Under the pieces are notes generated by a model, which did not search any database, was not told the origin of the DNA, and saw only the letters and a program-made list of their open reading frames with translations. Below are positions 15,037 through 60,900 of a stretch of DNA of 64,000 nucleotides, in pieces (the stretch's first letter is position 1; each line of letters opens with the position of its first letter). The stretch spans positions 12,520,790-12,584,789 of the forward strand of contig JAKZAN010000002.1 in assembly GCA_023053545.1 (NCBI GenBank), read 5' to 3'. Both the position numbers and the translations under genes were made by a program. Origin of the DNA: Lepidurus packardi (taxonomy: Eukaryota > Arthropoda > Branchiopoda > Notostraca > Triopsidae).

Positions 15037-15106
15037 GTCCATGACCGCGTGGATAACTCGCACGACTGGGGACCCAAAGGTCCTCGGTTCGATTCCCGGT
15101 CGAGGC
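15037..15106 (+). other. tRNA-like segment, unit 2
   Basis: This is the duplicate of the tRNA-like segment at 10422, with the B box at 15086-15096 unchanged. The call carries the same doubt about the missing 5' acceptor arm. Confidence 0.6.
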
Positions 15107-16482
15107 ACTTTATTTCGTCGAAAAAACGAAATATTTAATGGCTCCCTTTCCCTGTACCATATGCCTTCCCGGCAAGGTTCCTATTCCCATATTCGAAATT
15201 GTGATGCTTCGGCATTACGAGCTCGAATATCGTGGATAGGAAACCGAGCAGGGGAGTTGGGAACAGGGAAAAGGGGCGAGTCTCTCAATTTTTGACGATT
15301 TTTCAAGGGGACCCCCTTGATCGTGCAGGGATCCTTATGGAAAAAAGCCCAGAAAACGCTTTCCCAGCTCGAAAAGGAGCCACGCCCCCTTTTTGGTCCA
15401 ATCCACCAATAGGATTCGTCCATTTTTTAGGCCCCGCCCCCTTTTTAGCGGATTTTTTTGAAAAAACACGCAAAAACATTCAAAATTGTCACTTTTATTG
15501 CAAAAATTACAGATAATACAAAAAGGATATTTTTGGAAACTAGATTTTACGGGGAACATTTTGGTACAACAAATAAGGAATTCCAGTGGGAAGCAAAACA
15601 TCTCATTTGCACAATATTAGAATCCCAATTTTCAGAGCTAAAAAAATCACAAAACAAAAATTCGAACAGATTTAGAAGGCAGCACTAGAACAATGTTTCT
15701 GGAGGGAAATATTTTTACAAGAAAAACAAAAAAATATGAAGCAATTCTTCTCAAAACTTTTTATAATAATACACAACGTCGAACCCACAGGGTGCTTTGC
15801 AGATTTGGAAGACATATTTGCAAGCCGCCGGATTGTGACACAAGGCCGACGAGTCCATAATCTTGTAAGGGACCAAATTAAAGTTACGAAAATGACGAGC
15901 AAATTGGTCCGATCCTGGACGCTGATTTCAAATGGAGAATCACAATCATTTCCTGCTTGATCAGATCTTCTGCCTAACAAAAGTTGTGTCATCTACTGTT
16001 TGTCGCTCTTCCATTGTAATTCACCATTATTACATCCTTATTTATATGTGAAACTAATTCACCTTCTGGAAGCTAGACGATGGAGGTTCTGCGGTTCTCT
16101 GACATGCTGCGGACAAATTCGCATCATGGGAACGAGGCAATACCGCGATGGATCACTTGAGATTGTTGCTTCATTTCCACTTCAACTATAATAAGATAAA
16201 AAAAATACCAATTAATCAAATTGTTAAACGCATTCAAAAGAAAACTTACTTTTCGCTTTCCTTTCCGATCCTGGCAAAGAACTAAACCTGCAGTAGATTC
16301 GCATCCCTGGCCACCAGCCAGCGCGCAATGGTGACGTCTATCACCTCGTTGATGTTGATAATCAGCCAATCCCTCCAGACAGGGTTCCAGGCGTTGTAGC
16401 CACAAAAGTGAACACCGATATCGCAGGACGAACACGGATATCGCACTGATTAGGTTAGCCACCGCCATAATTAACGTTCGAA

Positions 16483-17745
16483 CTGCCCGCCAAAGACCGC
16501 CACTGCTGTCTATGGTTAGCCACCGCCCTATTGAAAACCTCCAACGATGTTTTCAAAAGGAATTGCCCGCCAAAGACCGCCACTGCTGTCTATGGTTGGC
16601 CACCGCCCTAATGAAAACCTCCAACGATGTTTTCAAAAAGAATTGCCCGCCAAAGACCGCCACTGCTGTCTATGGTTAGCCACCGCCCTAATGAAAACCT
16701 CCAAGGATGTTTTCAATAGAAGTTGCCCGCCAAAGACCGCCACTGCTGTCTTAGGTTAGCCACCATCACAATGAAAACCACCCAACGAAATCTTCATCAT
16801 GAATTGTCCGCCAAAGACCGCCACTGCTGTCTAAGGTTAGCCACGACCCTATTGAAAACCTCCAACGATGTTTTCAAAAGGAATTGCCCGCCAAAGACCG
16901 CCACTGTTGTCTATGGTTAGCCACCGCCCTAATGAAAACCTCCAACGATGTTTTCAAAAGGAATTGCCCGCCAAAGACCGCCACTGCTGTCTTAGGTTAG
17001 CCACCATCACAATGAAAACCACCCAACGATATCTTCATCATGAATTGTCCGCCAAAGACCGCCACTGCTGTCTAAGGTTAGCCACCACCCGATTGAAAAC
17101 CTCCAACGATGTTTTCAAAAGGAATTGCCCGCCAAAGACCGCCACTGTTGTCTATGGTTAGCCACCGCCCTAATGAAAACCTCCAACGATGTTTTCAAAA
17201 GGAATTGCCCGCCAAAGACCGCCACTGCTGTCTTAGGTTAGCCACCATCACAATGAAAACCACCCAACGAAATCTTCATCATGAATTGTCCGCCAAAGAC
17301 CGCCACTGCTGTCTAAGGTTAGCCACGACCCTATTGAAAACCTCCAACGATGTTTTCAAAAGGAATTGCCCGCCAAAGACCGCCACTGTTGTCTATGGTT
17401 AGCCACCGCCCTAATGAAAACCTCCAACGATGTTTTCAAAAGGAATTGCCCGCCAAAGACCGCCACTGCTGTCTTAGGTTAGCCACCATCACAATGAAAA
17501 CCACCCAACGAAATCTTCATCATGAATTGTCCGCCAAAGACCGCCACTGCTGTCTAAGGTTAGCCACCACCCTATTGAAAACCTCCAACGATGTTTTCAA
17601 AAGGAATTGCCCGCCAAAGACCGCCACTGCTGTCTATGGTTAGCCACCGCCCTAATGAAAACCTCCAACGATGTTTTCAAAAGGAATTGCCCGCCAAAGA
17701 CCGCCACTGCTGTCTAAGGTTAGCCACCGCCATAGTGAAGACCTC
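16483..17745. repeat. 80-bp satellite array with 241-bp higher-order repeat, unit 2
   Basis: Sixteen monomers are present against ten in unit 1. The extra six equal two full 241-bp higher-order repeats, the pattern expected from unequal exchange in register. Confidence 0.9.
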
Positions 17746-18743
17746 AACGATGCTCGCCTGAAAGAAACAATGAGTAGTAAAAACTTATAAATGTAAATTA
17801 AAGTGCTACAACAATCACTTCGAAGCTCCCCATGAACTTTAAACTGAAATCGGATTCGTTAGAAGTTGACCTCTTGGCACAGGATCACTTCTTCTTCTCC
17901 ATCATTTCGCCACCGAAAACTAGAAGAAAAGGGAAAAATATCAGTACGCATGAAATCAATTCATAAACAAAATGTTTAAAACTTACAAATACGTGTGAAC
18001 AAACACATCCGCAGAGGAAGGCTCCCAGAAAGAGTGAAAACGCAAAACGTATGAAAAGGATCAAACTTGTCCTGATTCGCGTTTGTAGACTTCCGGTAAC
18101 ACATAAAAAACAACAACACAAATTGCATAGAACATGTGAAAGCTATGGAGAAGGAGAAAAACTTGCCGAGTTTTGTGTTTGTAGACTTCCGACAGACAAA
18201 TAAAAAACAACAACACCAAGTTGCACACGTTTGAGACGTTCGTCAAGTCGACCTCACTTCTGCATTTCCGGTTCGAGACATCGTATGAACGTCGCAACAC
18301 CCAGTTGTCCTCCCCCTTTCGCCACCTTCCACCCACTTTAGTCGATTAACGTTACCAAAGATCCTGCAACGAAACGTAAAGTAGAAAAAAGTAAGTAGTA
18401 AAAAGTAAGTATGTTTACAAACGAATCAAAATCTAAACTACATGGGAAAGAAAAAGATTATCTTTTACCTCGACCTCGCGAACACTCCGACTTACAAAAG
18501 TTGACTTTGGCTTCGCAGGCAATCTTGGAAACACCGCTGAATGCGAAGAAAGCTCACCAAGGGACCAACCCGAAGAACGGTCTATCGCGGCACTTTTCAC
18601 TCTTGGAAACACTGGGATTTGAAGAAGGGGCATGAAGGAATCCCGAAGATCAGGCAAATGGGCGAAACTTCCACAGAAGAAACTTCCATCTGCACTTTTC
18701 GCTCTTGAATACACCGGGATTTGAAGAAAGGGGCATGAAGAAA

Positions 18744-18768
18744 TTGCCTGATCCCAAGGATCAGGCAA
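18744..18768. repeat. Perfect 11-bp hairpin, unit 2
   Basis: This is the duplicate of the hairpin at 13648-13672, with arms and loop identical. Confidence 0.75.
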
Positions 18769-19687
18769 ATGGGCGAAACTTCCATCCCTGCCTGGGCTGC
18801 GTTCTTCAGTAGAGGCTCCCCAAACCGTTGACCACCCGTTAACCATAGAAAAGCTTCGTTGTTACCATTAAAGACCTAATGAATGGCAACAACAAAGACT
18901 TTTCGCCGCCCAGGAAATTAAAAGTTGCGGCAAAAGACCTAACCGGCCAACAACACTTTAACTCCTGGCATACCTGTTCCTTCTGGTTCTCCTGGTTCCC
19001 ACAGAAGGTAAGTAGCTACCTCCAAGTAGCAGAATATCAGCTTAGCAGATTAAAGTTGCAAATTCTGTCGACGGCGAAGGATGATGTAAGGCAGGGATGA
19101 AGTAGAGAGCACACTTAACACCAACACATTTTTTGTTTACTGGCGTAGGCCTGACCAGAGTTTTGCCGAACACCACACTTAACACTTTAAACGCGCACTT
19201 GAATTGACTCCAGGTTTTGGAAGATCCAATTCTTAATGTTTTCGAAGATAACGCTTAATCCGATTGGTAATGTTCAACATGCTTGGTAATGTTTAACTAT
19301 AAACTCACTACTAACTTTCACAAGGTCGCTGGAGAAAACCAAGTCTGCACTGATTGCTTGCTAGGGAGCAACTGACGTTATAGGGTTTCTTCAGGGTGCA
19401 CATCCGTTCAAAGGCAACAAACTTGTGGAGTCGTTCTCTTGAAACTATCCGGACACGGTTTGATGTTTATAAGAAAAACACATGCAGTGATACGCAGCTT
19501 CGGTTCGGGTTCGTCAATCCATGGTAGCGAACCAGAGAACGGCTTCCCAAACCGAAACTTCTGGCGAATTCTACTACGACGTGGGTCGAGGGCCAGAACC
19601 GAGACACTTCTTATGTCTTCGCTTTCTTCTAATGGACGGCGTTTAACAACATAAAGGCACAATGTCATTGAAATGTTGTTAAGTAAT

Positions 19688-26300: not shown

Positions 26301-29300
26301 TCGTCTTAAGCGTATGCGGCGAATCGCGGATTGACCACGTTACCGTGTACCCGGTCAAGTTCCCATTGGATCGCCCAGGTGGCCGCCAAACGACTACGAC
26401 CGACCGATCCGTAATCGCATGGAAACTTAGGTTCTGTACCGCATTCGGAACTGTAATAAATACAAAAAATAGTCCAAATTAGTATATTAGAATATTAACA
26501 AATATTCCTCATTAAATAACGGAAAAGTACCATCTTCTAGAGTTTTGGCAAGAACGGGTACACTTGCAGGACCATCTCCAGGGCTCGTAAAGCAGAGAAC
26601 GGTGACATTATAGGATGTAAACTTGTCCAATCCAGTCATTACAGCTGTCTGTTCAGCTAACGGATCAAAAGGACTCGGAGGAACTGCAATTCTGACAAGG
26701 TTTAAGTCGCCGTCTAAAGGTACTGCCTGGAGTTTGTAGCCTTGGTTGATCCCGTTTACGAGCTGCGGGTCCGGAGGCGTCCACCACACCTGCAAAGACG
26801 TCGAGTTCAACGCTAACAGTCTAACTCCAGTGGGCGCTGCTTGCGGAACTGCAAAAGCCAAATTTTCGAATTATTTCTTAATTATTTACGAATTTTAAAC
26901 ATTATTTCAGATTTTTTTTTAACTATTTAAGAATTAAAAACAAAAATTTAAGAATTGAATTGAATTGAAATTTGAATTGAATTCAAACAAAAATTTAAGA
27001 ATTAAAAAAAAAAAAAAAATCAAAAGTTTTAAAAAAATTATTTTACCTCCTTCACGCGTTTTGTTTTAAACATTTCAGATTTTTTTTAACTATTTAAGAA
27101 TTACAAACAAAAATTTAAGAATTGAATTGAAATTTGAATTGAATTTAAACAAAAATTGAAGAATTTAAAAAAAAAAAAAAAAATCAAAGTTTTAAAAAAA
27201 CTATTTTACCTCCTTCACGCGTTTTGTTTTAAACATAATTTCAGATTTTTTTTTTAATTATTTAAGAATTAAAAACAAAATTTAAGAATTGAATTGAATT
27301 GAAATTTGAATTGAATTTAAACAAAAATTTAAGAATTAAAAAAAAAAAAATCAAAAGTTTAAAAAAAAAGTTATTTTACCTCCTTCACGCGTTTTGTTTT
27401 AAACATAATTTCAGATTTTTTTAACTATTTAAGAATTAAAAACAAAAATTGAAGAATTTAATTGAATTGAAATTTGAATTGAATTCAAACAAAAATTTAA
27501 GAATTAAAAAAAAAAAAAAAAAAATCAAAGTTTTAATAAAATTATTTTACCTCCTTCACGCGTTTTGGCGATAATACTAGGTCCATAGCTGCCCAATCCC
27601 ACTTGATTATAGGCAGCAATCTGGATTTCGTAGTCCTTCCAGGTAATAAGGTCTTCAATCAAGTAATTGCGCTGAGCCTAATTAATTTGAATTAATTCAG
27701 TAAAATATGAAAAAAATGTGAAAAAGAGGCTAATTTAGTGGGTTTTACTTCACTAGTGATGTTTTTATGCGACCAAGGACTCTGTCCATATCCGTCTAAG
27801 CGGTAACGCACGACATAACCCATCACGACGCCATTCCGGTATTCCTCCTCTGGCGGATTCCACTGAATCATGATTTGGGAGCTGGATCGAGCGGCTCCGA
27901 CCAATCCTACCGGTGGTCCTGAAGGAACTTCTTGCGGTAAAGTCACACGATTACTGGCTTCAGAAGCTGGCCCCTCCCCCACACTGTTTATCGCACTGAT
28001 CCTAAACTGATACGCGGCGGCTGCTTTCAAGTTCGTGAGGATCACCCAGCGCGCAGAGGACGAAACGTTACTCAATTCCGTCACCCAACTTCCTAACGGT
28101 TCAGGAATGGGACCTAATAATAATGGTAAACAAAAGTAATAGTAATAGTACAATAATAGTAAATAAAAAGTTGAAATACAAGAAAAGGATATGAAAGTTA
28201 CACTGAAGTGAAATAAGTCGATTATTACCTGTAATGGGGACTACTCGTCGCTGGACGATGTACTTTAAGATGGGATTATTGCCGTTAAATCCAGGAACCC
28301 AGGATACATTGACTGCTCTTCCACTATTGGACAACTTGGTCGCTGAAACTGTCGTGGGAGCGTAAGGAAGCTCAATAACGTCCAAGCGAGCTGCTCGCGA
28401 ATCATCTCCAGCAGTTGAAGTCACTTGGCACTCATAGAGACCCACGTCTGTAGCTCTAGCTTCGGCTATCTGTAGAGTGCCATCATCCAATTGCTGAATG
28501 CGTTGGCTGCGACTTCCATTTATCACCCTTGGAGAGATCAAAAATCATAAAATTAGCCCAAAAAACTTGAATTCATTGGAACTTTGTTACTTTTTGTCCC
28601 TAAGCCAACGAAGAACGTAAGAAGCTGAAGGGTCGCTCGATACTTTGCACTGTAAAGTTGCTGTATGACCCAAAATGGTGCGAGTATCCACTGGCGGTTG
28701 CATAATTTGAGTTCGCACTAAGAAAAAAAAGTAGAATAATGGAATAAAATACAATAACTGAATTATAATAAACAATTTCTCACCTAAAACGGACAAGTAG
28801 GCGGAGCCTTCCACTGATCCCGCCTCGTTACTACGTAAGCACGTGTATTTCCCAGCATCGGTTGCTCGTACAGCTGCTATAAGTAGACTGCCATCTTCTA
28901 GTATCTGGAAACGCCCCGTACTCGTTATATAGGCGGAGTCTAAGGAGAAAAATTACGTTAGAAAAATTCAAAAATTGTAAAATTAAAAAAAAATCTTGAA
29001 AGTTTGAGTTTTACCATTAAAAAACCATGTCACATTAGGGACTCCGGAACCAGCTGCTTTGCACACCAGAGTTTCGTCTTTTCCAACTGTTGCAGTACGG
29101 TTTTGGGGCGGGGCTTCCATCACTGGCGCCGAGGCTGATAATAAAATTCGAGTTAAAAGACAAAACAACATGAAATAAAGTATAAATATTTAAATAAACA
29201 AAATAAAACTACATTAAAACGATTCAATAACAAAATAAAAATACATTAAAACGATTTAAAAACATTAGCACTGAAATACTTTAAAGAAAGACATTCACCG

Positions 29301-33883: not shown

Positions 33884-36875
33884 ATGGGTTCTAATCAAGC
33901 GAGGAAAGATGTCTATTCTGCAGCTTTCGCTGGTTTCCAAGAGAATCTACCCAGGCCTCCCGTTTTTCCCGGTAAAAAACACAAAACAGACACTAAAATT
34001 GATTCAATTTAATTTAATTTCACATTTAATGAAGCAAATTGAAGCTAATAATCTCTTTTTTTTCAATTTTAAAGGTGGAAATGATGCAGCAGTTTCAGCC
34101 AATGCTTCCTATAGAGCCAGTACTTCGCACCGGAGCGATCCACAACGAATTCCAGACCGGAAATACGAGTACAGCCATAACGCCGATACTTCCAACGCAC
34201 GGGGCTATGAACCAGCCGAAGGCAGTGCGAACGGCACGCCCCCTTTACCTGAAACCCCTCCTTATTTGCGCTGGGCCGAAAATCTGCTAAATTTACTCTC
34301 GGATGAAGATGGCGTCCAACTCTATTCCCGGTACCTGGAGCAGGAAGGCTGTCGCGACCTCCTGGATGTAATTTTTTTCGTCTATTTTCACGTTTTCGTC
34401 GTATTTTCGTCTATTTTCACGTTTTAACCTTATTAGGAGGATTGTAGAGGGATATTCTTGGCTTATGCAAAGGGAGTTTGAGAGGAAAGGAGATAATTAC
34501 TTTGCTTCTCCATTTCTAGTTCTGGTTTGCGTGCCAAGGACTCAAGAAGCGAAGTTTGGAAGACCCTGAGGGGATTCCTATGCTCATTAAAGTGATCCAC
34601 CGACGCTATATCCGCGCTCATCAGCTGGTGGGCTTATCCGAGCGCGTGCGGCAAGAGATTGGCGAGAAAGTCGCGTCCAAAAAGGGATTGGTCGAGAGTA
34701 TCTTTGACAAAGCTCAAGAGGAAGTGGAGGATTTCATGAACAAAGCCACGTATCCCAATTTCCTCAAGTCTGAAGTCTACTTACAGTATATCCAGGTATC
34801 TAATCACGTTCTGTTTATACTTTCCCAGCTATTACAAGCTGGCAAACTCGAAAAAAAACAAAAAAATAACAAAACAATCTGTAATGAAACACTTTTTCAT
34901 CGATTTGATCGATTGTTTCTCTTCTTAGCAGGCCATGCAAAACGGATTGGAGCTCACGAGGAACAAAAGAGACGAATTTGGACACTCCAACAAGCTTTCC
35001 AACGCTCCTTTTGGGGACGAACCCAGTCCGTCAAGCGCGTTAGCCAATTTTGAGAAAGAAAAGGCAGCTGGCATGTTCTTAGCACCCATGGCAGCTTCAA
35101 TAGGACCTTGTATGGGTGGAACCTTAGCCACAGTTCATGAAGATTCCGAGCTTTGCATGCCACTCACCCAATCAGCCATTGCTGCGACCGAAAGGAAGCG
35201 ATCTAGCATGGTACCAAGTCATCTTTCGGCCCGGGGCAAAATGGATACGTTAGGGTACATAGTTTTGTATTGGAAACCGTCTTTCGAATGCCGTTTAATG
35301 GTTTTGGGTTCCTTTTCAGGTCATATTCTCACGCAATGGGCATAATGGGAGCCAGAATGAGCATGCCTCCACCTGTCAATCCTTACTCGTATGCTTATTC
35401 TTCGTACAACCCGGTTTCCCGGCAAGATTCTGAGCTCCAGAGTCTCAGTTCAGACGCTCAAACCGACGACACCCATTCGATGACCGATTCCTCAGTGTAA
35501 GGAAGGAAAAATTGCATTATTTACGAATTAAATTGAATTAATTTCGTTTTTTCTCCCTTTTTTTAGAGATAATATGTCAATTGGGTATCCAGTGAGGCCT
35601 ACGAAGAAGCAGCAGAGGCGGCTGCACCGCCAAGTGAAGGAAAACGCAGCTCAAAACCGAGATGCAGCCATGCATCAGATGGTGATTCCGCGGACTCAGA
35701 GGATTCAGAAGGAATTGCTGCCTCCTCAAGAGGAGGAGCAGTTTTTCGCGCTGCTTTTGCCCAAGTTAGAGAACGTGAGAAGACAGCAAGAAGCCGAGGA
35801 GAAGCTGGATAAGAAGCTACAAGCTGTAAAAAGCCGTTTTTCGAAGAGGAATCATTGAATTTCGTTTGAATTTACCTTTTTTTTCGTTTATAGCATGATG
35901 ACGAAACTTGTGCAAGCGACGGATGCATGTATCCGCATAGGCCGACTGGGAACATCAACAAAACCCTGGTGGATGCTTTACAACGACTGGGAATGGCGTC
36001 TGAATCTGATACTCAAGCGATTTTGGGTAAAAATTGGACGAAAATTTGGGATTTATCGAGTTTTTTGAACGAGTTTAACGTTTTGGGATGCTTTTAGATG
36101 AACATGTACAAAGAATTTGGTCCGATCAGACACCTTTAAGGTCGCCTGGAGGCTTGTCACCCAGTCCGTGGTCTCCCGAGTCCAGACGACGGGTCGTACC
36201 CACTGGAGTGCCATTTTATTCCAGTGCGTACTCCGGGAAATCTCATGTTCACCATCGGAGAAAAGACAAGGTTGGTTTTAACCTCCTTTTTTGGTCTTTT
36301 TTAAAGAATTTTTTGGGTTTATTTGGGTTTAAAATGATGGTGAATGTTGTTTCGGGGTTGAAATGTTGATGTAATGGATTTTTTTCTTATTAGGACGCCA
36401 ATTCTACCTTCTCAGCGGATTCAGGGGCAGTTTTGGATTACTACGAGGTGGGAATTGGAAAGAATAAAGGCTATGGCGATGGACAGGCGTTTGCCAACCA
36501 AATGGGAGGGAATTGTAGGCCCAAAGAGCTTCCCAGGAAGAGTGGAGTCCCTAAACGATTACCAGCGCCAGAACCTGATTCGGGTGTATCAGTCATATCA
36601 GACGCCCCTCCTACTGCCTATCCCAATCCTCCTCTTCCGGTTTCTTCCAAAGAAAGGTGGGATTTTACTTGGATTTTCTAGGAATTTCTGACAAATAATT
36701 TGTATATTTTGATTTTTCGATTTTTTTTTTTTGATTTTTTAGAGTTTTTAACTGGATTTTGGATAATGACAAGTACCAAGGCGTCGGACAGGAGGGAGAT
36801 AGAGACCCTAACAGTGCCAGTAAACACAGAGTGCGGACAGGCACGAATACTTCACCTGGATCATCCAGGTAAAGA

Positions 36876-36907
<32 letters not shown>

Positions 36908-38607
36908 AAAAGAATTTTTTTTATTTTTTGGTATTGATTTGGAATTGTAATTGAATTTAGGCGCAGTCGAAAGCAAGCACAGGCAGCTACACATACCTCA
37001 TCCCGTTCAGCGTCGCAAGAAAGGGCGTGGCCAATTGGGGCAGTAGGTCCTGGAAATGATGGAGCATCCATGTCAGATGATGGCAAAACTAAGTTGAAAC
37101 CAAAGTAAAATTTGAAGGATTTTTGTTTATGGATTTTGAATATTTTTTTCATATTTCTAAACTAATTTTATTCATAGATCAAGCTCAGTTGTTCGTGGGG
37201 CTAGCATACCGGCTGATGCGCTGTCAATGCCGCCTCCAGGGCCAGTATCGAATCCGTCAACCTTAAGAAAGTACCGGCCTGGCAGCAAAAGTACTGGCGA
37301 AGGACCTAGTTCATTGGCTCCGAGTGGGACGAGTACAAGTGCGCCGACGCAAACCAGCGGCGATTCAACGGTGGTTATGTTCACCATTGGAGATGAAACA
37401 GTGCCTTACCGAACAAGAATCCCTGGCCCGCACATAACCCTTAAGCAGTTCAAAGAAAACTTGCCAAATAAGAAGAAATTCAAGTAAATTTCACAATTTT
37501 CTGGCGATTTTTTTCAATTTTTTTCATTTTTTTTTCAATTTTCTCCTCTTGAAATTTTTCTCTAATTCTCTTTAATTCTTAATTCTCGTAACATTCCAGT
37601 TTTCCTGGAATTTTTTTTTTTTTAATTTTCATTGATTTTATTTTCCCACTTATTTTGTAGAAATTCAAGTAAATTTCACAATTTTCTGGCGATTTTTTTC
37701 CATTTTTTTAATTTTTTTTTCAATTTTCTCCTCTTAAAGTTTGTCTCTAATTCTCTTTAAGTCTTAATTCTCTTAACATTCCAGTTTTCCTAGAATTTTT
37801 TTTTTTTAATTTTCATTGATTTTATTTTCACACTTATTTTGTAGAAATTCAAGTAAATTTCACAATTTTCTGGCGATTTTTTTCCATTTTTTTCATTTTT
37901 TTTCAATTTTCTCCTCTTAAAGTTTTTCTCTAATTCTCTTTAAGTCTTAATTCTCGTAACATTCCAGTTTTCCTAGAATTTTTTTAAACAAATTTTCATT
38001 GATTTTATTTTCACACTTATTTTGTAGAAATTCAAGTAAATTTCACAATTTTCTGGCGATTTTTTTCCATTTTTTTCATTTTTTTTCAATTTTCTCCTCT
38101 TAAAGTTTTTCTCTAATTCTCTTTAAGTCTTAATTCTCGTAACATTCCAGTTTTCCTAGAATTTTTTTAAACAAATTTTCATTGATTTTATTTTCACACT
38201 TATTTTGTAGAAATTCAAGTAAATTTCACAATTTTCTGGCGATTTTTTTCCATTTTTTTTTATTTTTTTCATTTTTTTTTCAATTTCTTTCAATGTTTTT
38301 TCTATTTTCTCCTCTTGAAATTTGTCTCTAATTCTCTTTAATTCTTAATTCTCGTAACATTCCAGTTTTCCTAGAATTTTTTTTTTAAATTTTTCATTGA
38401 TTTTATTTTATTTTCACAGTTATTTTGTAGTTTGATTTCATGTTAGCCTAATGGGAGAGTTTTTCTTGTTTCTTTTATAGGTACTACTTCAAAATGCAAT
38501 GCGAAGATGATCCAACGATTCCTGTGTATCAAGAAATTATGGATGACGCAGACATCTTGCCGTTGTGGGAAGGAAAAGTACTGGGATCTGTTAAACCGTG
38601 GGATTAA
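33884..38607 (+). CDS. Axin: Axin, Wnt destruction-complex scaffold
   Basis: Thirteen exons join into 895 codons. The start ATG at 33884 gives [22 protein letters not shown] near residue 24 resembles the tankyrase-binding motif of Axin. An RGS domain (about 90-219) begins [15 protein letters not shown] and binds APC. A GSK3-binding segment (about 355-390) has [12 protein letters not shown] and [20 protein letters not shown] near residue 515 is the beta-catenin-binding helix. A DIX domain (about 815-893) begins [15 protein letters not shown] and ends [16 protein letters not shown]. Axin brings beta-catenin, GSK3, CK1 and APC together in the cytoplasm so that beta-catenin is phosphorylated and degraded. 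Exons: 33884-33971, 34075-34367, 34520-34795, 34932-35254, 35320-35496, 35567-35825, 35894-36026, 36098-36270, 36394-36656, 36743-36868, 36961-37104, 37178-37483, 38481-38607. The last intron is swollen by a tandem array. Confidence 0.96.
37484..38440 (+). repeat. 183-185-bp array in the Axin last intron with decoy splice sites
   Basis: The exon ends AAATTCAA at 37483, followed by gtaaatttcacaattttctg. This border recurs four times with donor GT at 37669, 37853, 38036 and 38219. Each copy is preceded by tattttgtag, an acceptor-like end. Each unit thus looks like a complete small intron joined to an 8-nt mini-exon. Use of one mini-exon would shift the DIX frame by 8 nt. Confidence 0.88.
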
Positions 38608-39112: not shown

Positions 39113-40881
39113 TTAGGCAGTGCACGGTTGTTGGACGTAAGTTAAGCAGAAGCCACGGTTGTTGACTTGGGCAGGAACGGTAGAGTTTTCATTGTTGTCG
39201 AAGCGGACTGTAATTTGGAATGGACGGACTGAACCTAAGAAAAAAACGTTCGATGTTGGTATTAATTTGGAAGGTTTTAGGTGTAATAGTTGTTGTTGTT
39301 TCGATGTTGATATTAATTTGGAAGGTTTTAGGTGTAATAGTTGTTTTTAGTTGTGTAATAGTTGTTGTTGTTTTTACTGTAGACGGTGGTACTGTTGGGC
39401 GTGGCAAAACTGGCGAAGGCGGAACCGCAAAGTCGGTCTTGGCAAGTTGTATTGCCTCTTTGGAGAAACCGGCCCAGAACGTCGGTGGCACAAGGGATAA
39501 AAAGCCAATCCGTCGTACAAGCGACTGCACCTACTAAAGCTCCAGGAACGTTAGGAGCAGCTTCTGTTGGTCCCGTAATAGAAAAAACTGCGAAATATAG
39601 AGTTAAATAGAATATCACGAAAGTGTTTCAAGGGTAAATAGAGAATGGAGATAGGTACCGCCATTGTTGCAAACGCTGTAGGCAATTCCGCAGAAATTCT
39701 CCTCGGTTCGGATGCAGATTGAGTAGTCTTGGTTCGATAACTGCCTTCCAGTGTTGGGGTCGTAGTTAAAAGACGTAATACGGCCTGATACTCCAGTGTA
39801 GTATTGCAGACATGAGGGCGTGGCTATACAATCGTTGGTTAACGCACAAGGAATCTGATGCTTGAGTAGTTTTTTCCATGTTACCTCGATAAGAAACTGC
39901 ACAGGGAATCTGGGCCACTAAAATTCGCCAACTTCGCGAAAAACTGGGACCACTCGTCACTACAGTTAAGGTTGCCGGGGTGCTGGTACCTTCACCGACA
40001 TCGACGTACACTAAACCAGAAAAATACAAGCAATTACTTTGAAAGTAGTAATAGAATGGAAGGAAGGAAGGCAGTAATAGAATAGATAGTACTATGCTGG
40101 CCAGTATTGACTCCGCAGATTTGAGGAGCTCGGGAGCTGGTACTGGTGACGAGGAACTGATCATTCAAACATCTACTGTCTGCTTGTTCAGGTTGAGCTA
40201 ACACCAGTGTGATAAAATCGATTCTGAAAGAACAGATACCTTTATAATGCTTCACACTTGGGAGGATTTCAGATTTCATTCAATTTACCTTAATTGGCAG
40301 ATGGAAGTGTCCAGTTTATTAACACGTAACTGGCAAGAACCTGTTCCGTCGTAGCTAGTTGGATGATTCGTATTAACGAAGTAGGTATTGTTGCGATCCG
40401 TCGTTCCACCACATGATTTTGTGACTAAAAGTCAAGACATACAAGGTAAATGTCCCGAAAACGATGGAATCGATGAGTTAAATAACGTACAAATACAGCA
40501 GACACCAAATCCTAGAGCACAAGAACCACTAGCAGTTCCATCTAAGGCTGTGCACTGTCGAGCAGTGTAGCAAGTTCCATTATTGTCGCTATCTCCTTGA
40601 CAATAGTCGTTTGCGAATCGAATAATCGTGAAAATATTGAAAACTGGAATAAAATTGGGATGAAACGCATTAAAATTAGGGTAAGAAACGTGTTAATAGT
40701 GTTAAGAAAAACAAAAAACGTAATGTTTAAGAAACTTACACTTCCCAGCTCTGGATTTGGCATCGTTAGTCACATTAATGAAGTTAACGCTTGGATCCGC
40801 TTCATCAGCCAATAAGGAATGAGTTGACAGCGCCACATGGACACTGCAGCCAATAAGGAGTAACCATATGAACGAACACAT
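39113..40881 (-). CDS. Secreted cysteine-rich protein with CUB-like domains, arthropod type
   Basis: Eight exons join into 394 residues. A signal peptide starts MCSFIWLLLIGCSVHVALS. A cysteine block follows with NGTCYTARQC and GFGVCC, next to SCGGTTDRNNTYFVN and a CUB-like region: SCQLRVNK, CQLRIDFITL, QICGVNTGQH, SFSRSWRILVAQIPC. A second half has SCLQYYTGVSGRITSFNYD, LSNQDYSICIRTEENFC, CTTDWLFIPC and DRLCGSAF, ending NRGFCLTYVQQPC. This order matches uncharacterised secreted proteins that are abundant in insects and crustaceans. Their function is unknown to me; extracellular protein binding is likely from the fold. Exons: 40740-40881, 40491-40643, 40289-40424, 40093-40223, 39885-40010, 39659-39823, 39378-39587, 39113-39234. 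Confidence 0.88.
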
Positions 40882-41178: not shown

Positions 41179-43121
41179 TTATCGCAACCATAATTTCAAA
41201 CGGAGTGCATCCACGCCATTCAAGTAATAGCGGAACAAACGTTTATCTCGCACGAAGCCCAGATTCTCGTACAAACGCAGGGCAGGGACGTTCGTGATTT
41301 CCGTTTCCAACACAACCTGAAAAGGGCAAGGCAAGGATTTAGGTAATTACAGCAAACTCTCGTGCTACATGTAACGGTAGTACGGTTACCTCATCTGCCC
41401 TATCGTGGATCATCGCCAAAATTGCCCGCGTTACTAACTCCGTACCTTCAAAAAGTTAAGATAACATAAATTTACATCGTAAGTTTTATGCAAAGAGGTT
41501 ATTTACAAATTCATGAAGCTACTAAAGCACAACAAAAACTGACAATACATAAGAACATGTAAATTCATGTAAATGAAATTAAACTCAGAACTTCAGAATG
41601 TAAACAATTATGTAAATAACGGAAATTGCATAAAGTGACTGCCATTTCTTGTATTTACTAATTAATTACATTACGACTTACAAGGTATATTTGCATTATT
41701 TTAAAAATGTAAACGATTACAGAAATTAGGTTAAAAAACTGCCATTTCTTGTATTTACTAATTAATTTGATTACTACTTACAAAGTAGCTTTGCATTATT
41801 TTAGAAATGTAAACGCATTACAGAAATCAGGTTAAAAAACCCGTCAAATTATGAAACTATAGCCTTTCAGAGTCGTTGAGTCTTCAATTGCTCGTATTCG
41901 AAACCCTTTATAAACAAAAAGTGGAATCGATTTCACTATTCAATTCCGATCGATCTAATCGATTTCAATGACATAACTGACTACATAATAAAGAAAAAGC
42001 GTTTGGATGATAACTAAAATACGAATTAATAAAATACACTACTTTAACATTCATCTAAGTTTTTTTTATTTATTTATCTAAGTAGTCTAATATTTATTAC
42101 TCTTCAACGATTAAAACTGAACGCGTTTTTGTTTACAACGTTCATTCCAAACAGGGGCAGCAGTGAATTCAGGTCACAAGTTGCGTGACTTTAGTTCATT
42201 TACTTATAAAACACTCTATAATAACAAACCCGAATTTGTACACTTAAAATACTGTGCACAGTTTACATGATTTAAGCTTCTATAAACGCGTAAAATCTCA
42301 AACAAGATGCATCACAGAGCGCATTTTTATTTGTAAAAAAAGGGTTATTACCAATTTTTAACTTCCGGAATCTTTCGTCGACGGCCAACATCGCGATATA
42401 ACCTCGACGCGTTACTTTTTTGTGAAGATCTAGTTTACAGACAATGGCCCCAACGCATTCTTCGCCACAATGAGCCTAGAAATAAAGAGAGCGTTACAAC
42501 GTTTTCAGAAAGGACGTCATGTTTAATCAATCTTTTTTTACCAGGTAACATAACTTGGGCCAATTATGGATAAAATATCTGTATGTATAAATGGAGTATG
42601 GTTCGGATAAATCTCGCTGAATAAGTCGCATGATATCGTGCATTTGATGTTCCGATTCGTACTGGAGATATCGGACAGGCTTATCCATGCCTGGGGCAGG
42701 AATAGTCGGTTCTACAGCATAAGTTGAATCTTCCTTGACATCTTGACACGAATTTGCATCGCCATTTCGGATTACGACGTCGGTTTGAGACAAGGAACCA
42801 TTAGGACTGATTCGAAGGTTGTCGACAAGCAGTTGTAGTCCATTTATCTCTGCCGGTTCACTCCCTTTTTCCTAGGAATAGAACTTTATTATTCATTAGT
42901 TTGCGAAAATCTCTGTTGCTAAAAGAAAGTGTATTTTAGTTCAAATTGTACTATTATAGTTGTGCAAAAGTAGGCAAACAAAGTGCTTAGACAGACAGAA
43001 GTATTTTCTTATAATACACATACCGAATATTTGTCAAAATAAAATATATACCGGTAGCACTAGCGGTACAACAACTATAATAGATTCAATATATATGAAT
43101 TAAAAGGTTTTTAATTACCAT
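41179..43121 (-). CDS. NAA30: N-alpha-acetyltransferase 30, NatC catalytic subunit
   Basis: Five exons give 216 residues. The first coding exon supplies only the ATG (43119-43121) and is joined to 42542-42871, giving [14 protein letters not shown]. Family landmarks are [94 protein letters not shown] and the end LRLKLWLR. With NAA35 and NAA38 it acetylates N-termini such as Met-Leu, Met-Ile and Met-Phe during translation. The GNAT acetyl-CoA loop normally reads R-x-x-G-x-G; here it reads RKLKIG, with Lys in place of the first Gly. Remaining exons: 42352-42475, 41390-41445, 41179-41316. The minus-strand AATAAA at plus 41098-41103 fits the 3' end. Confidence 0.93.
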
Positions 43122-46054: not shown

Positions 46055-46208
46055 CTTCGCTATGTTTTCCAATAACCTGTTTACTTAAGTAAAACCAATG
46101 CCAGTTTAACCTGTCAAGTTTAGTCTATTAAGTAAAATGTATTTAGATGAAGTGAGGTTTGGATTCAATTCAATTGAGTTATTGTTTTCAAAAGATTTGG
46201 ATCTTTCA

Positions 46209-46700
46209 CATTATATTTAAGTTATTTTCTTTAGTTAGTTATTTAGTTACTTCAAAAGTCGAAGAAGTTCTCAAAAGAAGAAGAAAGGCTATTTAAATGC
46301 GCCAAAATTGTGTATTAATGCTTCTTAAACTTTATTGTAAAACCTTTCGGCCTCATTCTTTTAGTAACGCCTTTTTCCGCCAAAAGTTTCAAAATACTTC
46401 GCGAGCGCCATCTGGTAAATTATTTAAGAAAGTCTTTCATTCCAAACCACTGATCTTTCACATTATATTTAAGTTATTTTTTAAGTTAGTTATTTATTTA
46501 CTTCAAAAGTCGAAGAAGTTTTCAAAAGAAGAAGTAAGGCTATTTAAATGCGCCAAAATTGTGTATTAATGCTTCTTAAACTTTAATGTTAAACCTTTCG
46601 GCCTCATTCTTTTAGTAACGGCTTTTTTCGCCAAAAGTTTCAAAATACTTCGGAAACGCCATCTCGTGACTTAGTTAAGAAAGTCTTTCATTCCGAACCC
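46209..46700. repeat. 249-bp direct duplication
   Basis: Two copies begin cacattatatttaagtta at 46209 and 46458. They share ggctatttaaatgcgccaaa and ctttcggcctcattctttta, and diverge by a few percent. Open frames inside are not conserved between copies. Confidence 0.85.
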
Positions 46701-47130
46701 CTGATCTTCCGCCAACGCTACGCTACCTGACCGCTGCTCGAGGCGATGCCTAGCCTGACCGTTTACGAAAGCAACAAACCGCAGAAAAGCGGATTCAACC
46801 ATCTTGGCGGAGGCGCCTAGAACCATACCAGAGCCTTATTTTCCTTGGTATTTTAGGTTAGATTAAGTTAGGTTACTTAGGTTATTCTAATGGTTATCAG
46901 CACCCTGCGTCATAAGCAGCGGCAAAGCCTGGGGATGAAAAAAAGACCACGTTTACTTGCGGTTGCTGAAAATTCCCAGAGGCACCTCCTCCAACCGATC
47001 AGAATCCGCTTCACCGCGGTTCCTTGCTACTTTCTGAAACGGCCAGTCGAGCCTAACGTAACACCACACAACCGAACTGCTTCCTCTAATCAAAAGTTCA
47101 TAGTATATTTTACTCTAATCTCTCGCCGAT
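46701..47130. other. Upstream region of the acyl-CoA dehydrogenase gene
   Basis: No coding exon is supported. The stretch should contain the promoter and 5' UTR of the next gene. A 109-codon frame at 46890 shows no domain. Confidence 0.45.
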
Positions 47131-49762: not shown

Positions 49763-51260
49763 GTGACGTTTTCGCTGTAGAAAAGCCCTTCAAGCCTTTT
49801 TATGTATTACGTGAACTGGCAAAACTCAAAGTACATTTTAACCCTCAGATTTTTTTGACTGATCAAAGGCTTTTCCCAATAGTCGTGGCTTTTACAATGT
49901 CAGCCTTAAGAACGTTGCAGAAAACATAATAATATTTACCCTCCCCTTCCCCCAAACCATAACTAATGTTCTTCTCATAGGATAATCTTGCCAACTGAAT
50001 CATGTACTTGTAATTGTACGAATGATAATTGAAACAATTATATGAAATCGAGTGAAAACTTGTACAGAAACGGCAACGCAGCATTAGCTCACGCCTGAGC
50101 TTTTAATTTTTAAAAAAATAAAAATAAAAAGCCCTTCAAGTTTCGTGATTGGTTCTTCTTTACAGTTTGTAGCCTGAGGCATCCGAATTATGAAAGTATT
50201 AGCAACTATAGACACTTTTAGTTGTTAATACGTTACCAAATTGACTATTTCAAATACGTATTTAGCTACGTAACGTTATTATTACGTAGCTAAAGTTATG
50301 TGTTATGTGCTAGCATTTGCAGTATGAAAAGGCTTAGGTTTGTTTGTACTAGGTCATGATACTGCAGTACAAAATATATGACAATGTGACGTTTTCGCTG
50401 TACAAAAGCCCTTCAAGTTTCGTGATTGGTTCTTCCTTCCAGCTTGTAGCCTGAGGCATCCGAATTATGAAAGTATTAGCAACTATAGACAGTTGTTAAT
50501 ACGTTACCAAATTGACTATTTCAAATACGTATTTAGGTACGTAAGGTTATTATTACGTAGCTAAAGTTATGTGTTATGTGCTAGAATTTGAAGTATGAAA
50601 AGGCTTATGTTTGTACAAAAGTTTATGTTTATGTTTATGTTAAAAGTTTATGTTTGTACTAGGTCATGATACTATAGTACAAAGTATATGATAATGTGAC
50701 GTTTTCGCTGTACAAAAGCCCTTCAAGTTTCGTGATTGGTTCTTCTTTCCAGCTTGTAGCCTGAGGCATCCGAATTATGAAAGTATTAGCAACTATAGAC
50801 AGTTGTTAATACGTTGCCAAATTGACTATTTCAAATACGTATTTAGCTACGTAACGTTATTATTACGTAGCTAAAGTTATGTGTTATGTGCTAGAATTTG
50901 AAGTATGAAAAGGCTTATGTTTGTACAAAAGTTTATGTTTGTACTAGGCCATGATACTATAGTACAAAGTATATCATAATGTGACGTTTTCGCTGTACAA
51001 AAGCCCTTCAAGTTTCGTGATTGGTTCTTCTTTCCAGCTTGTAGCCTGAGGCATCCGAATTATGAAAGTAGTATAGCAACTATAGACAGTTGTTAATACG
51101 TTACCAAATTGACTATTTCAAATACGTATTTAGCTACGTAACGTTATTATTACGTAGCTAAAGTTATGTGTTATGTGCTAGCATTTGCAGTATGAAAAGG
51201 TTTAGGTTTGTTTGTACTAGGTCATGATACGGCAGTACAAAGTACTACGTACACTCCAAG
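49763..51260. repeat. About 285-312-bp tandem repeat with internal palindrome
   Basis: Full copies start gtgacgttttcgctgta at 50384, 50696 and 50979, with a partial copy at 49763 and a headless copy from 50128. Each full copy holds aagcccttcaagtttcgtga, tagcctgaggcatccgaatt and an inverted repeat TTTAGCTACGTAA / TTACGTAGCTAAA around an 8-base loop (first at 50261-50294). One copy (near 50533) has mismatches in the stem. The array fills the space between ACADM and the secreted-peptide gene. Confidence 0.88.
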
Positions 51261-51939: not shown

Positions 51940-52715
51940 CTCAGTTTACCATGTATACTTACCATTTACCGCATTTGCCATTAATACAGCATACCATTTA
52001 CTCAAATTTCGAAATCCTTATAAGGTATTGTGTAACGCTTATAGTTTGAATTATTTTTGCGTGAAAGTGAATAGATTTTGATGTATTTCCTAAATAGCTC
52101 AGTTACTTCTTGCATGATATAAAAACTAGAATCGATAGAACCGCAGATTTCATATATATCGATACGATATAAAGCTAGAATCGCTCGAACGTGCAAACGA
52201 ATTTGTATTTGCATTTATACTTACCATTTACAGCATACCATTTACTCAAATTTCGAAATCTTTATAATGTTTTGTTTAATGCTTATAGTTGTAATTATTT
52301 TTGCGTGAAAGTGAATAGATTTTGATGTATTTCCTAAATAGCTCGGTCACTTCTTGCACGATATAAAACTAGAATCGATAGAATAGCCGATTTCATATAT
52401 AATCGATACAATATAAAAGCTAGAATCGCTCGAACGTGCAAACGAATTTGTATTTGCATTTATACTTACCATTTAGTATTAATACAGCATACTATTTACT
52501 CAAATTTCGAAATCTTTATAAGGTATTGCTTAATGCTTATAGGTTTCATTATTTTTGCGTGAAAGTGAATAGATTTTGATGTATTTCCTAAATAGCTCGG
52601 TCACTTCTTGCACGATATAAAACTAGAATCGATAGAACCGCAGATTTCATATATAATCGATACGAAATAAAGCTAGAATCGCTCGAACGTGTAAACGAAT
52701 TTGTATTGGTCATAA
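51940..52715. repeat. About 245-260-bp tandem repeat, three copies
   Basis: Copies start near 51956, 52218 and 52462 with atacttaccattta. Each contains gtgaatagattttgatgtat, ctagaatcgatagaa and ctagaatcgctcgaacgtg. The array separates the secreted-peptide gene from the 3' end of Polycomb-like. Confidence 0.85.
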
Positions 52716-52945: not shown

Positions 52946-55900
52946 CTACGTAGGATTGGGCTCCCAATCCAACAAATACTGGACTTGGCCACTGGGCAAA
53001 ATTCGTGTAGCCGCTACGGTGTACTTTTCGCCATTCGCGATCCGATTGGCTGTTCCAAAAATGGATTGCATCATCGAACTCGAACACGATTGAAAAGAAA
53101 GCTGGGGCGAGATAGAAGTAGGGGGCGTGGCTACCATAGGCGGCTGTACGGGATTTCTAAAGGCATCGACATTCGCCGGGAGTTGCTTGGCGAACGCCGA
53201 CAAAGGGGCGTGGCCTTTTTTAATGGGGCGTGGCTTCCTTCGTCGTACTTCGCCGTTTTTCGTTATACGAATGTCTTTTGCACTCAAGCGCATTTTCAAA
53301 GGCTGCACGCGGTGCAGTAGGGTATGGCCAGCACTGAGGTAGGCAGGAGAACCGTTCACGCTCATGAGATCCAAATGCAAAAAAGGATTATTTTGGCCCT
53401 CAAAATCCTTGAGAACAGGAATGAACATCTCCAGCGTGCTCCGCGAAGATGCTTCGTCCCCACTATCAGCCGGTGTGGGGTTCACGGACGAGTCCAGTAC
53501 ATCCGAAGACTTGCCACTCGATCCCTAAACAAAAAACAAAGATTTTACTACTATTTCATTCATTATAAGTATAAAAAACTCTTAAAAATTAGAAAAAAAT
53601 GCCTAAAAAACAGCTCTAATCCTACAAAATTAGTAAAATAATTGACTTTTTATCACCAAAAAAAGTAACTAGAAGCAAGTTTGAGTGTAAATTAACACGT
53701 AAAAAATCTAAAAAAAATTTGAAAAATGTAAAGTTTTATTGTAAAGATTTTTTATCACCAAAAAAAGTAACTAGAAGCAAGTTTGCGTGTAAATTAACAC
53801 GTAAAAAAATCTAAAAAAATGTAAAAAATGTAAAGTGTGATTAAAGTTTTACTGTACACATTTTTTATCACCAAAAAAAGTAACTAGAAGCAAGTTTGCG
53901 TGTAAATTAACTCGTAAAAAAATCTAAAAAAATTGGAAAAATGTAAAGTTTTATTGTAAAGATTTTTTATCACCAAAAAAAGTAACTAGAAGCAAGTTTG
54001 CGTGTAAATTAACACGTAAAAAAATCTAAAAAAATGTAAAAAATGTAAAGTGTGATTAAAGTTTTACTGTACACATTTTTTATCACCAAAAAAAGTAACT
54101 AGAAGCAAGTTTGCGTGTAAATTAACTCGTAAAAAAATCTAAAAAAATTGGAAAAATGTAAAGTTTTATTGTAAAGATTTTTTATCACCAAAAAAAGTAA
54201 CTAGAAGCAAGTTTGCGTGTAAATTAACACGTAAAAAAATCTAAAAAAATGTAAAAAATGTAAAGTGTGATTAAAGTTTTACTGTAAACATTTTTTATCA
54301 CCAAAAAAAGTAACTAGAAGCAAGTTTGCGTGTAAATTAACTCGTAAAAAAATCTAAAAAAATTGGAAAAATGTAAAGTTTTATTGTAAAGATTTTTTAT
54401 CACCAAAAAAAGTAACTAGAAGCAAGTTTGAGTGTAAATTAACGCCTAAAAAAATCTAAAAAAAAAATGAAAAATGTAAAGTTTGATTATAAAGATCTTA
54501 TCACCAAAAAAGTGACTAGAAGCAAGTTTGAGTGTAAATTAACCCGTAAAAAAATCTAAAAAAATTTGAAAAATGTAAAGCTTTATTGTAAAGATTTTTT
54601 ATCACCAAAAAAAGTAATTAGAAGCAAGTTTGAGTGTAAATTAACACGTAAAAAAATCTTAAAAAAAAATGAAAAATGTAAAGTTTTACTGTAAAGATTT
54701 TTTATCACTAAAAAAAGTAACTAGAAGCAAGTTTAAGTGTAAATTAACACGTAAAAAAATCTAAAAAAATGTGAAAAATGCCTAAAAAACAGCTCTAATC
54801 CTACAAAATTAGTAAAATAGTAAAATAATTGACTTTTTATCACCAAAAAAAGTAACTAGAAGCAAGTTTGAGTGTAAATTAACACGTAAAAAAATCTAAA
54901 AAAACTTAAAAAACGTAAAGTTTTATTGTAAAGATTTTTTATCACTAAAAAAAGTAATTAGAAGCAAGTTTGAGTGTAAAAAAATCTAAGAAAATTTGAA
55001 AAATGTAAAGTTTGAGTAAAGTTTTATTGTAAAGATTTTTTATCACCAAAAAAAGGAACTAGAAGCAAGTTTGAGTGTAAATTAACACGTCAAAAATCTA
55101 AAAAAATGTGAAAAATGTAAAGTAAAAAATAATAATAAAAAAAGGATAAAATTAAGAATATGAGGATTGTTTGGAAAGTTTTACTTTTGAGCTCAAGGGT
55201 CCATTAATTTTACGTCGCAAGCTGCGTTTCACTCGCGGACTTCGGCAAGACTTGTCCGCGTCTGCGCAGCTCTCTTCGGAGCTTTCCTTATCGTCGTTGC
55301 CATTATACGAGGCTTTTCGTTTGGTACAAATTGCGGAAGCCAAGGATGACGTATCAGTTTCACTTTCAGGACTACTGCCTTGGAAATCTAAACCCGAAAA
55401 ACCCTGTTTTAAAGCTAAAATACTAACATTTTTAACGCATGTATACCTGGCTTGACATGCCTAGTAGGAGGTCGTCCCCTTTTTCGCTTCAATGCAGTTT
55501 TTCTGTTGGTTTGAGCAGGATTAGCGTGTTTTTTCACTGCATTACATAGCGAAAGGTCTTTGACTTGATTTCCAGGCCTTAAAAAGAGGTTTAAAAAAAA
55601 AAAAAAATTCGTTAAATGTTTTATATCCAAAATTTGACGTTTGAAGAATAAATCTGATTCAAGACGAGATTTTTTAAAAAATTTTTTTTTTTTTTTTACT
55701 TGAATGTTAACCAACTTTCCATGAGTTGACTTGCTTGGGGCGTGAAGGGAACAGACGGAGGAACTCGAGTACGTAAGCCCCATATGCTGACTTTCTTTTT
55801 CATTTCCCTGCCGCTCATAAATCGGCCCTTGTTTTGCTTAAAGGCGCTTAGAATCTCATTCCTGCGCTCCACGCCAGATAATTTGGCTACCTATACCATC

Positions 55901-57936: not shown

Positions 57937-60900
57937 ATGGACGAAGAAGTTTTGCGCCAATTTAGCAAAAAATACGCTTTTGGGAGCTTAAATGTCGGGC
58001 AAAAAATCCAGGAGGAAGATCTCATGCCTGAAGATGATTGGCAGGTATTAAATAGCATGCCATGGCTGGCGTTTATAACTTAAAATAATAAGTAAAATAT
58101 TATTGTATCTAGGATGACGAATTACTGACCATGAAAGGCAGGTTAAATGAAGTCAAAAGTCTGTTAAACGATAAAAATATACGAGAATGGCATCAACACA
58201 CGTTCTTCACGAACCGAGCGGGTAATGTGATACAAGCCACGCGAAAAGCAGGATTTCCTGAGCTTTGCACTCAAGTGAATTTTCATATTAACCATATTAA
58301 CACCTAAAGAAGCGATTTTTCCCTTTGTTTGTTAGGCGTGGTTGAAGTTCTACGAGTGTTTAAGCTCGTATTCGCTTATAAGCGACGAACTGTATCCTTG
58401 TTTCCAGTCAGTTCATCTGTGCGAAGCTCCTGGAGCCTTTGTTGCCGCTTTGAACCATTATTTGGCCTCCAATCATCCTACAATTACGGTACTTGGTCAA
58501 TTAGGGAAGGGGATTAGCTTTAAGGCATCAGGTTTAACGTGTTTTTCGTAGTGGGATTGGATGGGCACGACGTTAAACCCCTACTATGAAGGAAATTCCC
58601 CCGAAGATATGATCAACGATGACAGATTCATAATGAATACCTTAGAACATTGGTATTTTGGCGCAAATGATACTGGCAATCTCATGGGCATTACTAATAT
58701 CCAACACCTGAAAGAACAGTTGCAACATTCCCGAGTTATGCTGGTAATTCAAGTCAAAATTCAAAAAAGTTCAAATTCTTTGAAATTCCAAACAAATTCG
58801 TTTTAGATAATATCCGATGTATTTCCTTAGATAACAGCGGATGGAAGCATTGATTGTGTGAACACGCCTGGCGAGCAAGAAGAAAGAGTGGCTGCATTGC
58901 ATTACTGGGAAGTATTGGCGGCATTCTCGATTCTCAACGAAGGTAAAATATATGAAACTTTGTCTTGAAACTTAAATTATTTATTTAATGGCTTTATTTT
59001 AGGGGGACATTTTGTCTTGAAGATGTTTACATGTTTTGAGTCTGCCAGCGTGTGCTTACTCTACCTGCTGTACGTCACCTTCGAGGAAATCCATGCATTC
59101 AAACCCGCCACGAGCAAAGAAGGCAATTCTGAAGTCTACATCATCTGCAAGCGCTACAAATCGCCTCAAATTGTCCAACCATGGCTTGAAAGGTACTCTG
59201 AAACCCCTTCCTCATACCTAGTTTAACCACTTCTGCCTTTAGATTGCAAAAGAAGGTCACTTCAAAGTCCAAAGCTCCTCTTTTCGCCAAAGAGAGCATT
59301 CCAGAGAGCTTTTTTCACCACTTACGAGCTTGTGGAGCGTTTTTCAGTGCCTTGCAGGTCCATTCAGTCGCAATGCAAATGCCAATTCTTTGAAATAACG
59401 TTTAAAAGTCTTTAGATGGAAGTGATTACCCGGAATATCCGTTTATACTCTCAAGGGTTGTCCGAACCAGAGAAAGTTGGTATCGTCAGGCTGAAAGATC
59501 AAGTCGCGACCCACTTTTTGGAGCTTTACCGCATCCGCCGAGTGGGTTTCATCAACCAAATCGTTGGAATCAGCAAACTCATGGTAAATTAGCCTTCAAC
59601 CTTCTTCCAAACCACTAAACTTTGATGGAAAGCAAAGGCCAAGTTGGATTAAGGACCTTCTACCAGAGTTCTACAAAGGAGAGGGCTCTTATTTGGAAAG
59701 GAGCCATCCGTTAAGCCTATCCGAGCAACTGGAGCAGATCAAACGTGACATTGCGCACTTTAAAGGACCTTTGATGAACGAACCTCCGATCGTTTGGGTA
59801 AAAATACCAGGAAAACTAACCTTTTCAACCTATTGGGCGGTTTTGGTTACAATAAAACATAAAGCAATGGGTAAAACGTCCTATTTACCACAGGTTTCAT
59901 CATCGAGTCTGGTTTCCTGCCAGGTGGAAATTACACGAGGACGTCCGGTGCGCCAAATCCAGAGTTCCAAGTTTTGCTCGGACAAATTGCTGCAATCTTG
60001 GCTCAAATTTCGCCATTTGAGCCGAGAAAACCAAGACAAACGACATACGATCCAGGATTTCGTTCCGGAATGTCCCCAAACCGGACGTGTACTACTTTTA
60101 TCCCTTACCTTTGACCCTACGAATGTTCAGCAGAGTCATGCGAAGATTCTGCAGGCGCTCAACAATTCGGTGAAGGCTTTAGCCCCGGGCGATCACTTAA
60201 TCCTGCAGGATTTCCTCTGTCTCACCCGGTTTACGAGCAGTCTTGTGTGTCTTCTAACTCAGGGCTTTCAACAAGTAATACTAGTGAAAAATAATAAGTT
60301 AAAAAAAATGGGAAGAAAATAATATTCCATTATTAGGTGGGATTCTTTGCGTCCAAACGATCTCTGATGTTTCAAACTTGGGAAGAGAGAGGAAAGCAAC
60401 TGACTGACGTGTTGCAGAGCTTGGATTTGAAGGAAAACGAGCAGAAGACTGTGCTCAGCCTCTTTCCTATTCAACAGTTATGCGGTAATGACCTAAAAAT
60501 TTTAATATTTAAAGTTAAGGACTTTTTAAGTTTGATTTCGCTACGGATTTGGTGTGTTGTAGAGTAGTTGAAACTAAGAACTTTGACGTCGAACTCGGTA
60601 TATCTAACCGACATATATCGAACGTATAACCGACATATCGACATATATCGGCCAAATCGACATATATCGATATATAACCGACATATCGACCATATCGACA
60701 TATATCGATATATAACCGACATATATCGAACTCGGTATATCTAACAGTAACCGAGCTATGAATTTTTCTTCTGGAAGCCACGCCCCTGAGGCGGGGGCAT
60801 GGAAACTAGAAATTGAACCTAGAATTCTTAAAAACTTGGGTAGTTGTGAAGAATAGAGAAACGTTTCTTGCGAGTACGCTCTAAAACCTGAAAATTGTGT

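Follow-up and report, generated by a model that had tools for sequence, protein, structure and literature searches.

A tandem array of donor-border copies in the last intron of Axin and its probable origin by tandem duplication

The last intron of Axin begins at a splice border that recurs four more times inside the intron, each copy carrying a full donor and standing directly behind an AG. This locus raises the question of how such copies arose and how a gene can carry them, be it as alternative mini-exons, as points of piecewise intron removal, or as passive duplicates. The window, that is, the whole stretch of 64,000 nucleotides that was analysed, contains sidekick, Axin, DAXX-like, and Polycomb-like genes. 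Axin was recognised from an RGS domain (E 9.5e-15) and a DIX domain (E 4.3e-10) found by Pfam on two exons of a plus-strand gene. With its parts joined, DIX matches the solved structure of the Axin 1 domain (1wsp) with an E value of 7.4e-15.

The initial annotation had described the exon-12 border as recurring four times at intervals of 183-185 nt, each time behind TATTTTGTAG, and all five places were located (Table 1). The sequence AAATTCAAGTAAATTTCAC lies at 37476, which is the real end of exon 12, and again at 37661, 37845, 38028, and 38211, giving spacings of 185, 184, 183, and 183 nt. On the plus strand of the window, AAATTCAAGTAAAT and GTAAATTTCAC occur only at these five border places. 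The real border and its four copies are identical from -8 to +32, which corresponds to the first 40 nt of each unit, and all four intronic copies stand directly behind TATTTTGTAG. At 38421-38430, a fifth TATTTTGTAG with no border behind it closes the array. The repeats are real, but the array had been extended to the end of the intron; it stops at 38430, 50 nt earlier, and comprises five units, the first overlapping the exon end. Tandem Repeats Finder reports 37474-38276 with a period of 183, 4.4 copies, and 96% matches. The extra copies account for 735 of the 997 nt of the intron, about three quarters. The greater length of unit 5 is due to additional T-rich sequence, and a single base difference in this unit creates a decoy acceptor, ATTTTCACAG, at 38419.

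Table 1. Positions of the Axin and sidekick features within the window
Feature	Positions	Strand	Description
Axin exon 12 (our own count)	37178..37483	+	306 nt; first part of DIX; ends in AAATTCAA; from reading frame, splice borders, and Pfam DIX
Axin last intron	37484..38480	+	997 nt; donor CAA/gtaaat, acceptor ttttatag/GTACTAC; spliced DIX matches Axin 1 DIX
Last Axin exon, coding part	38481..38607	+	Remaining DIX and stop
Unit 1	37476..37660	+	185 nt; last 8 nt of exon 12 and real donor
Unit 2	37661..37844	+	184 nt; decoy 8-nt mini-exon 37661-37668 and donor copy
Unit 3	37845..38027	+	183 nt; decoy mini-exon 37845-37852 and donor copy
Unit 4	38028..38210	+	183 nt; identical to unit 3; decoy mini-exon 38028-38035 and donor copy
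Unit 5	38211..38430	+	220 nt; decoy mini-exon 38211-38218 and donor copy
Strong unused acceptor-like ATTTTCACAG in unit 5	38410..38419	+	61 nt before the true acceptor
Array-free end of Axin last intron	38431..38480	+	CTAAT at -33; best-scoring acceptor of the set
Sidekick donor-spanning array	26893..27567	-	17 nt of exon end and donor; three extra border copies, donor GTs at 27379, 27209, and 27046

The units are not equally alike. Units 3 and 4 show no difference over 183 nt, the remaining pairs are 8-12 substitutions apart, and the end units are the most diverged. An array produced by mis-joined reads during assembly would account for two identical neighbours, and the number of middle copies could indeed be wrong. 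However, units 1, 2, 3/4, and 5 each differ from one another by these substitutions and by length changes, which makes an artefactual origin of the copies extremely improbable. When unit 3 was compared by blastn with the 64-kb window, it matched only its five places at E 1e-3 and nowhere else; therefore, it belongs to a tandem array and is neither a chance resemblance nor an element dispersed within the window. An introner or mobile element was accordingly rejected at the scale of the 64-kb window, where the unit has no other copy. The 19-nt Axin border gave 0 matches against viral_contigs. In its place at the exon end, AAATTCAA encodes K-F-K of the Axin DIX domain, and since these are codons of the domain, the exon is the source of the intronic copies. 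At the array junction, the parental sequences share AG (2 nt) and no further homology.

These features are best explained by a tandem duplication that started 8 nt inside the exon, was later expanded, and has been tolerated because splicing keeps to the upstream donor, a reading to which a probability of about 0.77 is assigned. The duplication would have linked exon 12, 8 nt short of its end, to an intron point just after TATTTTGTAG, leaving a second copy of the exon end, the donor, and the intron start inside the intron. Unequal exchange or slippage may then have raised two copies to five units, the middle copies arising last. The original donor would have kept its place behind the real exon, where it is the first to be made and bounds an exon of normal size (306 nt), and it would be committed to the strong last acceptor. 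The identical donors downstream follow pseudo-exons of 8 nt, probably too short for good recognition, so that the first donor would be used, the others ignored, and the array carried as passive ballast. It is this persistence of the original donor at a real exon that would have made the duplication tolerable. The little or no homology at the junctions (2 nt in Axin, none in sidekick) is what would be expected of end joining or similar repair.

Whether the copies retain splicing potential was judged from weight matrices built on 51 of the 53 modelled introns, the two array introns (Axin and sidekick) being excluded. Of the 51 other real donors, 46 score no higher than the real Axin donor, whose four copies consist of the same 9-mer and have the same score. 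The seven array donors, three in sidekick and four in Axin, are the top seven of the 447 unused GTs in the 53 introns, and the eighth-best unused GT scores 8.99 against 9.14 for the Axin donor. Since strong decoy donors are otherwise rare among these 447 GTs, it is position that must decide between equal sites. The donors of the 53 modelled introns are GTAAAA/GTAAAT-like, with G at +5 in only 16. The first changed position in the Axin units is 41 (P 0.038), and the longest change-free run found anywhere has a P of 0.22. At best, the absence of changes from the first 40 nt hints weakly at constraint on the copies, and it is not convincing.

The acceptors present a different picture. With the matrix from -20 to +3, those of units 2-4 reach or exceed the scores of 14 of the 51 real acceptors and are equalled or beaten by 48 of 203 unused intronic AGs; the corresponding figures for unit 1 are 12 of 51 and 56 of 203. 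Shorter matrices place the unit acceptors at 21-24 of the 51 real ones, with 38-47 of the 203 unused AGs reaching them. The unit acceptors are mediocre. None of the 51 other real acceptors reaches the score of the true one at 38480. The decoy at 38419 is better than the unit acceptors, at least as good as 42 of 51 real sites, and matched by 7 of 203 unused AGs. The view that every unit is a potential 8-nt exon thus stands for the donor, copied at full strength, and for the AG directly before the 8 nt, and is weakened by the quality of the acceptors.

The consequences of mini-exon inclusion were computed. When spliced in silico from donor 1 to the last acceptor, the transcript encodes an intact DIX domain. 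As the initial annotation had anticipated, one mini-exon shifts the DIX frame and three restore it: the frame is kept with 0 or 3 and shifted with 1, 2, or 4. Three mini-exons introduce no stop and add eight residues inside DIX. Use of an acceptor at 38419, 38430, or 38446, or retention of the intron, leads to an early stop. If the downstream donors leaked, including any number of mini-exons other than three would leave DIX with an aberrant or truncated end. An mRNA holding a mini-exon would be recognisable by AAATTCAAAAATTCAA; the plain splice would join exon 12 to GTACTAC.

Such outcomes could be regarded as functional alternative splicing, by which the mini-exons would switch DIX off (1, 2, or 4 copies) or add eight residues to it (3 copies), the array tuning Axin polymerisation. 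Each unit does offer an AG and a strong donor, a branch-like TTGAT lies 29 nt upstream of all four unit acceptors, and the frame stays open without a stop at three copies. Nevertheless, exons of just 8 nt behind mediocre acceptors are poor candidates, only 3 among 1-4 copies keeps the frame, and the unit acceptors, equalled by 48-56 of 203 unused AGs, bear no sign of selection. Regulation of this kind is considered improbable.

In recursive splicing, a ratchet point needs AG/GT so that the joint rebuilds a donor. No AGGT occurs inside the Axin last intron, where AG and GT stand 8 nt apart, and classical recursive splicing of this intron was ruled out on this ground. A joint made at TATTTTGTAG is followed by AAATTC and not by GT, so that the donor is not rebuilt. 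Because the AG/GT ratchet is missing, stepwise removal of the intron, which had been proposed for this array, would strand 8 nt each time, and the proposal was not borne out. The sole piecewise route to a normal Axin mRNA, possible in principle, is nested removal of internal segments followed by splicing from donor 1 to the last acceptor.

In this nested form, the units would help to excise a long intron piecewise, each being removable before the final splice. Units 1-4 span 175-177 nt from GT to AG and contain the branch-like motif, and short introns prevail in the window: the modelled introns have a median of 79.5 nt (n = 52), and 41 of 53 are shorter than 150 nt. On the other hand, splicing from donor 1 to a unit acceptor leaves 8 nt behind, weak acceptors would have to outcompete the strongest acceptor of the set, and the comparable copies in sidekick have no acceptor directly before the exon piece. 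Nested removal is judged quite improbable. The same short-intron habit also counts against the passive duplication reading. If sites are paired across short introns, donor 5, which lies 262 nt from the last acceptor as against 997 nt for donor 1, might compete well with donor 1. It also counts against this reading that the breakpoint falls exactly at a usable AG, a coincidence for which it offers no explanation beyond the 2-nt match.

The parallel drawn earlier with sidekick was confirmed, as a second donor-spanning array is present there. The sidekick intron at 27550-26849 (702 nt, minus strand) repeats its own donor border three more times, at spacings of 171, 170, and 163 nt, and the extra copies make up 504 of its 702 nt. 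No sequence is shared at the joint of this array. In these copies, the exon piece does not directly follow an AG, and the mini-exon pattern of Axin is thus not general. AG/GT is present in the sidekick copies, where the preceding sequence is purine-rich and, by eye, a poor acceptor. Copies of the donor border were found in 2 of 53 modelled introns, namely, the last Axin intron and sidekick 27550-26849. A match to the acceptor border was found in only one of the 53, Axin 36657-36742, where it has 4 mismatches in 20 and lies in T-rich sequence, and it is taken as chance.

The longest modelled intron belongs to the Polycomb-like gene (53525-55184, minus strand, 1660 nt) and is mostly a 102/215-bp array, 1461 of its bases lying in repeated 15-mers. 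In the border-copy test of the modelled introns, no donor or acceptor border was found copied in this array. Near its 3′ part, ATTTTGTAGGATTAGAGCTG occurs twice, so that acceptor-like sequence is duplicated there too. Further repeats were noted in the window. Tandem arrays with units of 310, 251, and 254 bp lie at 50341-50940, 46200-46708, and 51978-52707, respectively, and are apparently intergenic. Beside sidekick, near-identical open reading frames follow in the same order at 10417-14576 and 15032-19654, about 4.6-5.1 kb apart, forming a large tandem segmental duplication, each block of which contains an 80/241-bp repeat array (11865-12655 and 16480-17752). A transposase-like open reading frame (Pfam DUF4371) with one interrupting stop lies on the plus strand at 6804-9317, and reverse-transcriptase-like frames were seen by eye on the minus strand at 1621-3686.

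It could be asked whether arrays favour splice borders, as had been implied by the suggestion that they are a recurring way of intron growth. In this window, 2 of 6 intronic arrays span a donor, against 2.86 expected under random placement. The expectation compares unit length with intron length minus the extra copies, and one of its inputs is rough: the extra length of the Polycomb-like array, 1290 nt, is a typed-in approximate figure, and without this array 2.28 of 5 are expected and 2 are seen. The six arrays are those with a period of at least 50 in the repeat listing that lie inside modelled introns, arrays in unmodelled genes (e.g., 39249-39345, 41638-41840, and 60609-60729) being excluded. 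Growth of introns by tandem arrays is observed, while enrichment at borders is not found in this window. On the whole, the initial annotation is partly supported; its observation was real and well described, and its interpretation was in part over-extended.

The extent of the exon overlap is a separate matter. The overlaps of 8 nt (Axin) and 17 nt (sidekick) both fall within a tenth of the unit, with P of approximately 0.01 if the start is uniform, in a post hoc test on two cases. Starts so close upstream of donors would suit a duplication caused by splicing or transcription themselves, through reverse splicing, an R-loop break, or nicking at the donor, which would make donor borders preferred array starts. 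However, donor-spanning arrays are not more numerous than chance predicts, the Axin junction joins AG to exon sequence and not to the intron GT and is no splicing product, and selection against longer, recognisable pseudo-exons would explain the same short overlaps. A causal part of splicing in the duplication is consequently held to be very improbable. A broader proposal is that, in this short-intron genome, introns commonly lengthen by tandem duplications across a donor, and that splicing acts as a filter through which only very short exon pieces (here 8 and 17 nt) pass, longer copies being recognised as exons. This generalisation is tentative and considered unlikely.

The five Axin donors, identical over 40 nt and with probably only the first in use, represent a natural experiment on site choice at equal strength. 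Taken together, Axin and sidekick suggest a filter under which duplications crossing a donor are tolerated if the piece of exon that they copy is too short for recognition as an exon. Introns can in this way lengthen severalfold at one locus, with the coding sequence unharmed. If the filter reading is true, equal donors at rising distances would make both a “first donor wins” rule and a minimum exon size measurable in a living animal.

The array can be compared with several known systems. Like ratchet points, it places an acceptor and a donor close together inside a long intron, and unlike them it has no AG/GT. It resembles intron gain by tandem duplication in that a splice border has been copied, yielding sequence bounded by GT and AG; here, however, an existing intron has been lengthened by units of 8 exon nt and about 176 intron nt, and no new intron has arisen in coding sequence. 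Among the literature matches listed, no second donor-spanning array was present, which is no claim of its absence. In polyubiquitin UBC and similar tandem repeat genes, as described in the excerpt of PMC10809524, dual-specific AGGT motifs lie at the borders of coding monomers. Both splice signals likewise stand at the unit borders in Axin; in the UBC genes of that excerpt, AG and GT form one motif in coding sequence, whereas the Axin array is intronic, with 8 nt between them and no AGGT. The closest counterpart is intron 7 of human F7, in which, according to the excerpt of PMC6627357, the first of several 37-bp repeats contains the donor and splicing normally uses only the most upstream donor; the excerpt of PMC6783214 does not mention the 37-bp repeats. 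As in this account of F7, the real Axin donor lies in the first unit of the array, with near-identical donors behind it. The Axin unit is longer (about 184 nt against the 37 bp given there), and an AG directly before the exon piece in each intronic unit makes 8-nt mini-exons possible, a feature that sets it apart from F7 as excerpted. First-donor use, reported there for F7, is in Axin predicted from the intact DIX domain. Judged against these excerpts, the Axin array would by itself represent no new process and appears to be a clean further case of the donor-spanning repeat known from F7 intron 7.
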